Origin: an uncultured Mycoplasmatota bacterium
Lineage (GTDB): Bacteria; Bacillota_I; Bacilli_A; RF39; UBA660
Direction of reading: 5' to 3'
Length of the DNA: 32,233 nt
NCBI GenBank assembly: GCA_946494015.1
Contig: CAMMBL010000007.1
Location: 1-32,233 of the forward strand
Shown piece after piece: positions 3,323-6,880 of the stretch. How positions within the stretch are numbered: position 1 is the first letter of the stretch; each line of letters opens with the position of its first letter. The notes under the pieces were generated by a model that searched no databases, was not told the DNA's origin, and was given only the letters and a program-made list of their open reading frames with translations. Both the position numbers and the translations under genes were made by a program.

Positions 3323-4114
3323 CTATTCAAGATTTAATTTTCTATTTAAAATATAGTTAGTAATTGGCATTATTATAGCAATTATTATTAGAATTAAAAT
3401 AATTAGAATAATAAATAATAAATTAATTGATGCTAGTGGTGTAAAAGTTGCATCTAATTGTTTAACAAAGTCTGGACTTATTATAAAAATAGATGATAGT
3501 GTTAATGCAAAATATATTTCATAAATAATATATAAAACGATATAGGCAATAAAGCTAAATGCTAATTTATTAGTATTTTTTAACTGGCCTATGGCTATAG
3601 ATAAATAACATAAAGATATTTGTGATAAATATGCTACTATAATTAAAATAATACAAAGTATTAACATTAACCACGCATCACTTGTGAAATAAGTAAATAA
3701 AGTATAAAGGTCATTAGTAAAACTTGTCCACTCACCATTACCTATTATTAAAATACAAATAGAAATCATAAAAATAACTGTACTAGAAATAGCTGTTATT
3801 AAAGATGTAAGTACTTTAGATGTTAAAATGGTACTTTTCTTAACTGGTAATGTGTTTACTAAATAAGCTCTTTCACTAGTAAAATCTAAATAAAAATCTC
3901 TAATATTTAAGAAAAATGTTCCTATTAATAGAATCATTAGTATTATGACATAGGCAAATACTACTAGGGCATTTAAAGTTGAAAATAGATTTGACAAATC
4001 ACTTAAATTATTAAAAATAATTGTTAAAATAGTAATAACTAAGGTAATTAGATAAATTGGTAGTAAGGTTTTAAATAAATTTTTTAAATCATATTTTAAT
4101 ACTTTCTTTAGCAT
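3323..4114 (-). CDS. ABC-2 type transporter permease subunit
   Basis: This 263-aa protein has six predicted membrane helices (about 19-39, 52-72, 98-128, 148-175, 180-215, 230-255) and a charged N-terminus MLKKVLKYDLKNLFK. That layout is typical of ABC-2 permeases of small GntR-linked transporters. It overlaps the ATPase gene by 7 bp and would form the membrane channel with it. No substrate can be read from the sequence; YtrA/GntR-linked systems of this kind in Firmicutes usually respond to cell-envelope antibiotics. Last gene of the three-gene operon. Confidence 0.85.
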   Translation of the reverse strand: MLKKVLKYDLKNLFKTLLPIYLITLVITILTIIFNNLSDLSNLFSTLNALVVFAYVIILMILLIGTFFLNIRDFYLDFTSERAYLVNTLPVKKSTILTSKVLTSLITAISSTVIFMISICILIIGNGEWTSFTNDLYTLFTYFTSDAWLMLILCIILIIVAYLSQISLCYLSIAIGQLKNTNKLAFSFIAYIVLYIIYEIYFALTLSSIFIISPDFVKQLDATFTPLASINLLFIILIILILIIIAIIMPITNYILNRKLNLE

Positions 4115-4803
4115 TTAAATTCCTCCCTAAATAAATCATTTATAGACTTGTTGGTTTCTTTTCTAATATTATCTGTACTACCAGTTCTTACTACTTTACC
4201 ATTTTTTAAAAATATTACTTCATCTAATACTTTTTCTAAATCACTAATTAAATGCGTTGAAATTAAAAGACTAGCATCATCATTAAAGTTAGTAAGAATT
4301 GTATCAATGATATAATCTCTTGCAGCTGGATCTATTCCTCCTATTGGTTCATCTAAAATATATAATTTAGCTTTTCTACTCATTACAAGAATTAGTTGAA
4401 CTTTTTCTTTTGTTCCTTTAGACATAGTTTTAAGTTCTTGATTTAAATCAAGATGTAATTTATTTATTAATTCTTTCGCTTTATTTATTCTAAAATCTTC
4501 ATAAAAATCTTTAAAATAGTTAAGTAATTCTAAGACAGTCATATTTTGATTTAAATAATTTTTATCTGGTAAATAAGAAACAATTTTTTTAGTTTCTACT
4601 CCTTTATTTAAACCATCTATTTTAATTGTTCCTCTATCTTCTTTTAATAAATCATTTATTAATTTAATTAAAGTAGTTTTACCACTACCATTTGGCCCTA
4701 ATAGTCCAACTATTTTTCCTTTTTCTATATTAAAAGTAACATCATCTAAAACTTTATTTTTTCCATAGCTTTTAGTAATATGATTAACTTCTAATAAAGC
4801 CAT
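4108..4803 (-). CDS. ABC transporter ATP-binding protein
   Basis: A 231-aa nucleotide-binding subunit. Walker A is GPNGSGKTT near residue 36, the signature region is a degenerate MSKGTKEKVQL near 128, Walker B is LYILDEPIGGID near 147, and the H-loop histidine is in ISTHLISDLE. MSKG in place of LSGG is common in this YtrB/EcsA/NatA-like class. It hydrolyses ATP to drive the 3323-4114 permease. Start and stop overlap tightly with the regulator upstream and the permease downstream, indicating translational coupling. Confidence 0.93.
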   Translation of the reverse strand: MALLEVNHITKSYGKNKVLDDVTFNIEKGKIVGLLGPNGSGKTTLIKLINDLLKEDRGTIKIDGLNKGVETKKIVSYLPDKNYLNQNMTVLELLNYFKDFYEDFRINKAKELINKLHLDLNQELKTMSKGTKEKVQLILVMSRKAKLYILDEPIGGIDPAARDYIIDTILTNFNDDASLLISTHLISDLEKVLDEVIFLKNGKVVRTGSTDNIRKETNKSINDLFREEFKC

Positions 4804-5162
4804 TATAAATCACTCTCCTTAATTATTTTCTTTATTTCTATATTACTATATCCTAATGATTTTAAAGTATTAATAAATTCTTGATATAAATTTTTAGCTA
4901 GTTTGTTCTTTTCTTTTAAAATAAACTCTTTATCATCTATAACATATTTACCATTAGTTCTAACTGTATAAATAAACCCTTCTTCTTCTAAGCTAGTTAA
5001 GGCTTTTTGCATTGTATTAGGATTAACCTGATATTTAAAAGCCAACTCTCTTACTGATGGTATTTTACTAGCTGGTAATAATTTCCCTTTAAATATTTCT
5101 TTTTTTATCAAGTCTTCTAGTTGTAAATAAATTGGTTTATCATTATCAAATGTATATGATAT
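4803..5162 (-). CDS. GntR-family (YtrA-like) transcriptional regulator, likely AUA start
   Basis: The ORF track starts at a TTG inside the winged-helix domain and so truncates the protein. The same frame continues upstream through TFDNDKPIYLQLEDLIKKEI, the conserved YtrA-type N-terminus, giving about 119 aa. The helix-turn-helix is at ~36-60 (KIPSVRELAFKYQVNPNTMQ), followed by a short C-terminal helical part. The AAGGAGGG ribosome site (5169-5174) is six bases before an ATA codon at 5162-5160, and no ATG/GTG/TTG exists between that site and the winged helix. The start is therefore probably AUA, or an ATG lost by mutation or sequencing error. It heads the ABC operon and probably autoregulates it through the adjacent palindrome. 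Confidence 0.85.
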   Translation of the reverse strand: MSYTFDNDKPIYLQLEDLIKKEIFKGKLLPASKIPSVRELAFKYQVNPNTMQKALTSLEEEGFIYTVRTNGKYVIDDKEFILKEKNKLAKNLYQEFINTLKSLGYSNIEIKKIIKESDL

Positions 5163-5178
5163 AAGTATCCCTCCTTTT

Positions 5179-5208
5179 TTGTATTACTTAATTAATACAG
5201 TTATACAA
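5179..5208. promoter_or_regulatory. Palindromic operator of the GntR-ABC operon
   Basis: TTGTATTACT-N10-AGTTATACAA is a 30-bp palindrome with 9 of 10 arm positions matching. It overlaps the -10 box of the operon promoter and lies just before the regulator's RBS. YtrA-family repressors bind such inverted repeats in their own promoters. It is distinct from the divergent promoter at 5247-5275. Confidence 0.7.
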
Positions 5209-5228
5209 TAATTATATGCTAATGTCAA
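5200..5228 (-). promoter_or_regulatory. Promoter of the GntR-ABC operon
   Basis: On the minus strand TTGACA (5228-5223), a 17-nt spacer and TATAAC (5205-5200) give a near-consensus promoter. The -10 lies within one arm of the operator palindrome, so repressor binding would block polymerase. Confidence 0.8.
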
Positions 5229-5305: not shown

Positions 5306-6880
5306 ATGATAGATAACAAATTAAGTAAATATAAGAATTTAGTAGTTAAAGATATTTATAAAAATGGAAATTATGTTTTTATTTCTTTAGATAATGGTCA
5401 AAATATTTTATTAAATGAAAAGAAAATATATGATATTTCAGAATATGATGCATTTTTTGAAGTTATTAATATGAATAATATTAATTATGCTATTTTAAGT
5501 AGGGATTATGATGCTTCTTATGTAATTAATTTAGAAACTAAGAAAGTTGTTTTTAAAGATAAAAATGTTTATCATATAAGTAAAGCTGATGATAAGTGTT
5601 TACATATAATTAGAAATATTGGTGATAATACAATTTATAATATTGAAACAAAAAAATATTTAACAGCGCCTTTAGGTTATGAGTTTGAAAAATCTTTAAA
5701 AAATAATTTATATGTTTTTAAAGAAAAGAATAATAATAAAGGCTTTTTTGACTCTAAAAGATTAATTACTGATTTTAATGGTAACGTTTTGTTAAGAGAT
5801 TTAGAAGGATTACTTAATTTTAGAGATAATCACTTGATAGTAGATAATGATGATATACTTACTATTATTAATTTAAATGATATTGATAATTTGCAAATTA
5901 AAACTGTTAAAAATGATCAGTCTTTACTTGCTAAGCCCCAAATATATGGTGATGGTAAGGTACTTTTGATTAAGGAAAATACAATTAGTCTTTATGACTT
6001 AGATTTAAAGTTAAGAAAAGAAATTAAAGTTGATAATTTAAAAGAAATTATAGATTTAGAGATAGTTGATGTTTTAAAATTACTTATTCCTAGTCAAGAA
6101 AATGATCAAGTTGTAAATAAACATTTATTTATTAATTTAGAAACTGAAAAAAGTCTTTCTCATAGTCGTATTGCCCCTTTTCCTTATTTTAATCCTTCTA
6201 CTTATGTAGGAATGGATTATCTTAATGGTAAAGAACAAAACTTTTATTTTTATGATAAAAATTTTAATTTAATTAGAAAGATTAAAGGATGTAAGTTTGA
6301 TAGTATTGATTGTAATAAAGAATGTATGTTTTGTATAGAAAACAATGGTAGAAAACAAGTACTTAATACAGAAAATGGTCTATTAAAAGATATTTCTTAT
6401 GATTATATTAAATTTCATGTTTTTGAGCCATATGGTTATGGAATTGATTTAGAAAAAGAAAAGATGGATTTCTTTGATTTGAATTTAAATGTAATCATAA
6501 AAGATTTTGACTATAATAAATATAATATAAATATTTTTCAAAATGAATTTAGTTATTTTATTATAAATGATTATTTATGTATTTCTAGCCATATTGTAGA
6601 TTGTTATGGTCAGTCACATTATAGAAGAATAATTGAGCAAAATAAAGGACCATTAATATTTGATAAAGTAGATTGTGATATTTATCCTTTAGATTCTTAT
6701 ATTAAAATAGTGGAAAATGGAGAAAATAAATACTTTAATACAGAAACTGGCCAGTTTACTTCTTTTGCTATTTTGGCACCTATTAATGATGAGGGAAAAA
6801 TAGATTTTACAAAGCTTGATAGTTCATCTTTGATTATTGATCAAAAAATTAAAGTAAAAAAACTAAAAAGACCATTTTAA
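5306..6880 (+). CDS. 524-aa repeat protein, possible divergent WG/beta-propeller fold, function unknown
   Basis: I do not recognise the family. The 524-aa protein has no signal peptide or membrane helix, so it is probably cytoplasmic. It is built almost entirely of short alternating hydrophobic/charged beta-strand segments with recurring phrases such as VINLETKKVV, YNIETKKY, INLETEKS and FNTETGQF, spaced irregularly along the chain. This resembles divergent WG-repeat or other beta-propeller proteins but lacks clear WG dipeptides. There is a cluster of cysteines near residues 330-350 (CKFDSIDCNKECMFC). It has its own promoter, a weak TGAGG ribosome site and a terminator, so it is a monocistron divergent from the ABC operon. 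Confidence 0.75.
   Translation: MIDNKLSKYKNLVVKDIYKNGNYVFISLDNGQNILLNEKKIYDISEYDAFFEVINMNNINYAILSRDYDASYVINLETKKVVFKDKNVYHISKADDKCLHIIRNIGDNTIYNIETKKYLTAPLGYEFEKSLKNNLYVFKEKNNNKGFFDSKRLITDFNGNVLLRDLEGLLNFRDNHLIVDNDDILTIINLNDIDNLQIKTVKNDQSLLAKPQIYGDGKVLLIKENTISLYDLDLKLRKEIKVDNLKEIIDLEIVDVLKLLIPSQENDQVVNKHLFINLETEKSLSHSRIAPFPYFNPSTYVGMDYLNGKEQNFYFYDKNFNLIRKIKGCKFDSIDCNKECMFCIENNGRKQVLNTENGLLKDISYDYIKFHVFEPYGYGIDLEKEKMDFFDLNLNVIIKDFDYNKYNINIFQNEFSYFIINDYLCISSHIVDCYGQSHYRRIIEQNKGPLIFDKVDCDIYPLDSYIKIVENGENKYFNTETGQFTSFAILAPINDEGKIDFTKLDSSSLIIDQKIKVKKLKRPF

Follow-up and report, generated by a model that had tools for sequence, protein, structure and literature searches.

A YtrA-type repressor gene with an apparent AUA start codon, conserved within a genus of gut Bacilli

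The gene of initiation factor 3 (IF3), infC, starts with AUU, AUA or AUC and is autoregulated by IF3. To our knowledge, conserved bacterial starts other than AUG, GUG and UUG are on record for few genes only. In Staphylococcus aureus, infC uses AUA, and the AUA or AUU starts of ccpN, cvfC1 and citZ yield about 10-30% of the expression obtained with AUG, the AUA start of the ccpN repressor gene being common to Staphylococcus and Bacillus (PMC13009471). In Streptomyces, sigR is translated from GTC in a coupled operon and repressed by IF3; its near-cognate start sets stoichiometry, and a canonical start leads to overproduction (PMC5472188). IF3 requires Watson-Crick pairs at codon positions 1 and 2 and is more permissive at position 3 (PMC10158994). 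As to regulators of transporters, S. aureus PmtR, a YtrA-subfamily protein whose gene begins with ATG, acts as repressor of its own ABC operon, pmtR-pmtABCD, in which the repressor gene comes first and the shared promoter lies upstream of it (PMC5080381).

The locus described here lies in a window of 32,233 nucleotides (the whole stretch of DNA that was analysed) from a species of the Candidatus Onthousia group, a genus within the Bacilli. It resembles infC in that an AUH codon follows a strong Shine-Dalgarno (SD) sequence, and infC of this very genus also starts with ATA or ATC; it differs in that the product is a repressor and not a translation factor, the link to IF3 being drawn by analogy. 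With ccpN it shares a transcriptional repressor as product, a non-canonical start, an extended SD and conservation across species, although ccpN encodes another repressor, which controls gluconeogenesis, and has a start that Ribo-Ret and reporter assays have measured. Like sigR, it encodes a transcription regulator and comes first in an operon with translational coupling, but with AUA instead of GTC and without the setting of a sigma factor and its anti-sigma partner. It matches pmtR in subfamily, in its place as first gene of an ABC operon and in the promoter upstream of the repressor gene; unlike pmtR it lacks an ATG start, and neither the repressor nor the ATPase here reaches the NCBIfam cut-off, for PmtR and PmtA respectively. 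For infC, ccpN and sigR, near-cognate starts were already known; what is new, judging from sequence comparison, is the predicted presence of a GntR/YtrA repressor among them, and of a single genus with at least five apparently conserved AUH-start genes. A limited search of open-access papers found no report of a GntR/YtrA gene with a near-cognate start.

The repressor gene, its operon and its start codon

The gene occupies 4803..5162 on the minus strand (119 codons counted from the ATA). Its product matches Pfam PF00392 at 46.6 bits against a cut-off of 27 (E=2.8e-12), which places a winged helix at the N-terminus, and its closest PDB relatives are Lmo0741 and Lin1836. Besides the winged helix, two features assign it to the YtrA subfamily, whose members are very small and have a single short C-terminal helical region: its size (119 aa, with alignments to both relatives over almost the whole length), and its context, a conserved ABC operon with a predicted operator, a palindrome at its own promoter. 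Since the alignments with Lmo0741 and Lin1836 begin at residues 3-4, the residues between the ATA and the first downstream TTG are part of the conserved protein. The best NCBIfam model is PmtR (NF047563), at 74.7 bits and thus below its cut-off of 200.

The repressor gene is followed by that of an ABC transporter ATPase (4108..4803, minus strand; Pfam ABC_tran, E=1.7e-26), which has its own SD and an ATG overlapping the TAA stop of the repressor by 1 nt. The third gene encodes an ABC permease-like membrane protein (3323..4114, minus strand); it matched no Pfam or NCBIfam family, holds a conserved position and shows 25-67% identity to its counterparts in relatives. The order GntR, ABC ATPase, permease is kept within the genus and recurs in other families. 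A divergent gene of 524 aa at 5306-6880 (plus strand), matching no Pfam or NCBIfam family, adjoins the operon in some congeners as well (L049, L053), with about 51% identity.

Ahead of the repressor gene, a -35 box TTGACA (5223..5228, minus strand) and, 17 nt from it, a -10 box TATAAC (5200..5205, minus strand) can be read from the sequence; the consensus promoter scan demands a T at the last -10 position, so TATAAC is absent from its output. Just downstream of the -10 box lies the operator-like palindrome TGTATTAATTAAGTAATACA (5180..5199, minus strand; TGTATTA-N6-TAATACA), a perfect 7-6-7 repeat scoring 14/14. Scores of 12-14 out of 14 recur in all congeners having the region and in most outgroup operons, against a typical 9-10 in random 70-nt windows. 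The conserved operon and the palindrome support a predicted autorepression by the YtrA-type protein, and together with the promoter ahead of the gene they lend substance to the autoregulation that the first-pass annotation had put forward.

Following an in-frame TAA, the minus strand reads TAC AAA AAA GGA GGG ATA CTT ATA TCA TAT ACA TTT GAT AAT GAT AAA CCA in the GntR frame, that is, (stop)-Y-K-K-G-G-I-L-I-S-Y-T-F-D-N-D-K-P-I-Y. From this upstream stop to the conserved FDNDKPIYLQL the frame holds no ATG, GTG or TTG, and the first canonical codon is the TTG at 5109..5111 (minus strand), codon 18. The SD AAAGGAGG (5170..5177, minus strand), recognised by sequence and by its score in our scan, is separated by 7 nt from the ATA at 5160..5162 (minus strand); the GGAGGG at 5169-5174 is 6 nt from the same codon, or 7 nt if counted from GGAGG. 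Both the missing canonical codon ahead of the YtrA N-terminus and the strong GGAGGG 6 nt from the ATA had been pointed out at first pass and are confirmed. A second in-frame ATA, at 5166-5168, directly abuts the SD and was rejected as a start for being too close. The RNA of the start region matched no known RNA family, and its local fold is unremarkable (z=0.17).

GntR orthologues were taken from 60 relatives and from a genome collection, and the start codon was compared in 23 genomes of the genus. Most of these belong to one close clade, so the 23 genomes count as about three independent lineages, namely the window, L066 and one shallow clade. The codon aligned to the start is ATA in 22 of them and ATC in the remaining one (L066); in none is it ATG, GTG or TTG, and the strong SD stands at a fixed spacing. 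Outside the genus, but within its family and class, around 20 orthologues have ATG at the aligned position, the outgroup N-terminus typically reading M-x-[FYW]-x-F-D-N, and a few distant relatives have TTG or GTG near it. As the orthologous operons of other genera carry ATG there, the AUH start is a derived trait of the genus. The start-codon comparison in relatives, a check proposed at first pass, was thus run and left the AUA start unrefuted, ATA or ATC being kept in all 23 genomes of the genus with no ATG. On this comparative evidence, translation of the repressor is close to certain to begin at the AUA at 5160-5162.

The best explanation of the locus, to which we give a probability of roughly 0.7, is an autoregulating YtrA-type repressor translated from this AUA, with low and IF3-sensitive synthesis. 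The initiator tRNA would pair at the first two positions of AUA, and the strong SD would offset the mismatch at the third. Such a start would lower repressor synthesis to a fraction of the AUG level and could make it sensitive to IF3 and to growth state. Because the ATPase on the same transcript is served by an SD and an AUG of its own, the repressor would be low relative to the transporter, and a scarce repressor would leave the operon easily induced. By analogy, the near-cognate start probably keeps the repressor scarce; low, IF3-sensitive synthesis seems likely in the light of the work on S. aureus, Streptomyces and E. coli.

AUH starts of other genes, and selection or drift

The parallel with infC drawn at first pass is borne out inside the genus. 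Among 30 of its genomes, infC (G000:C14:20542-21051, plus strand, in the same genome as the window; in relatives, L116 and L098-L127) has the start ATA in 25 and ATC in the other five, after GGAGGTG; an upstream ATG in G026 is severed by a stop and cannot be the start.

Further cases were sought in sampled stretches of this genome that total 648 kb, or about 53% of it, and hold 717 ORFs. An unfiltered scan for SD-aligned codons proved too noisy and was replaced by filtered scans, which admitted ORFs with an SD score of at least 19 that lack a canonical start upstream of this SD and within the next ten codons. All four ORFs that passed have ATH at the spaced position (ATA, ATA, ATA and ATC), so that chance fails to account for the ATH starts; they encode the GntR repressor, a peptidase-C26 protein, a thioredoxin_3/MTH895-like protein and a protein without a family. 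Of two control scans, that of a more distant genome (400 kb) yielded a single ORF with strong-SD ATC/ATA candidates; that of a same-family genome, over a small sample of 153 kb, yielded no strong-SD AUH candidates.

The Peptidase_C26 gene (L131:16176-16862 = G000:C2:36176-36862, plus strand) starts with ATA, its first canonical codon being about codon 63; the start is ATA or ATT in 16 genomes (ATT in 15 congeners) and ATG in more distant species. Since varying spacer lengths shift the GTG of its SD in and out of frame, the ATT or ATA itself must be the start. The Thioredoxin_3/MTH895-like gene (L215:9407-9649 = G000:C27:9407-9649, plus strand) has ATC here; counted over the genus, about 16 genomes share this ATC and one has ATA. 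In some congeners (L255, L260, L262 and L263; also L258 and L261) this gene carries an in-frame TAA or a change of frame, a disruption about nine codons in, just before NCSNGMK, that stems from a shared short sequence replacement. The family-less gene, with AGGAGGTGAT ahead of its ATA, encodes 239 aa (L208:8103-8819 = G000:C20:8103-8819, minus strand); the aligned codon in congeners is ATA, ATT, ATC, ATG (three) or GTA (seven).

A genome-wide shift in start usage was rejected, given that ATG dominates, making up 171 of the 200 strong-SD canonical starts in the scan. A YtrA paralogue in the same genome has ATG after a similar SD, so the AUH start is specific to the gene.

A different reading of the same start would be tolerated drift: AUA is used, but merely because, in an AT-rich genus with loose start recognition, a strong SD makes any AUH codon suffice. 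We regard this as possible though rather unlikely. The genes concerned, at least five in number, are functionally mixed and include non-regulators (the C26 and thioredoxin-like proteins), and the ATG of the family-less gene in three congeners fits such a laxity; yet in most species it is the same orthologues that carry AUH starts, the dominance of ATG elsewhere extends to the YtrA paralogue, and ATC, only about 4% of the Ile codons in the genes of the window, is nonetheless the recurrent start of one gene. Substitutions in the GntR gene number 55, 35 and 172 at codon positions 1, 2 and 3, and this dominance of third-position changes indicates an intact gene under purifying selection. On the tree of this gene, third positions with a majority of A saw 0.92 A-to-G events each and codon 1 saw none, but testing codon 1 for selection among the congeners gave no significant result (P ~0.4), an absence of significant excess conservation that drift would also accommodate. 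The lack of any reversion to AUG is compatible with selection against AUG and weakly suggests it.

It is conceivable, if doubtful, that infC, the repressor, the C26/amidotransferase-like gene, the MTH895-like thioredoxin gene and the family-less gene constitute an IF3-responsive translational regulon, which would couple a transporter repressor to translation status. Because the same genes, that of IF3 included, keep AUH across many species, the genus as a whole could be used to test near-cognate starts as selected regulation.

Other candidate starts and sequence error

In most congeners the repressor could in principle start not at the ATA but at a GTG that lies within the SD GAGGTGAT, three codons ahead in the same frame. 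The first-pass statement that no better codon exists holds in the window; about 20 congeners do read GTG-ATA-ATT-ATA in frame, with the GTG nine bases upstream of the ATA. This GTG, however, is part of the SD, being itself the site that pairs with the anti-SD, and is not preceded by another SD. The window species and L066 lack it and have GGG there; where outgroup SDs contain a GTG, this mostly falls in another frame, and in the SD of the C26 gene its frame varies. We therefore consider initiation at the GTG very improbable.

Translation from the TTG at 5109-5111, giving a protein of 102 aa, is still less credible. It has in its favour that this TTG is the first canonical codon in the frame, but it lacks an SD and would cut off the conserved FDNDKPIYLQL and the beginning of the GntR domain. 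Nor is it conserved: the corresponding codon is ATA in 20 congeners and TTA in one, and their first canonical codon is codon 46-51, too late for a working GntR protein. As far as sequence can tell, the view that the TTG goes unused stands. The ORF finder nevertheless reports precisely this TTG start and 102 aa, and standard gene callers would likely truncate this gene in the same way, as had been anticipated at first pass. Callers limited to ATG, GTG and TTG misplace AUH starts, and the start sites and N-termini of AUH-start proteins in these gut bacteria would often be mis-annotated.

A sequencing or assembly error at 5160-5162, imaginable in a draft genome of 78 contigs, is negligible in probability and already refuted by the relatives, 23 separately assembled genomes sharing the codon class at this start. 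A pseudogene with a lost start was rejected as well, the GntR ORF being intact everywhere and its changes falling mostly at third positions.

Farther afield, a 90-codon ORF (IGVKKEYPKRYMTISELLPYGFARC) on the minus strand of L285 (G059), from distant Bacilli, has AAAGGAGG followed by ATC and is possibly another near-cognate start.
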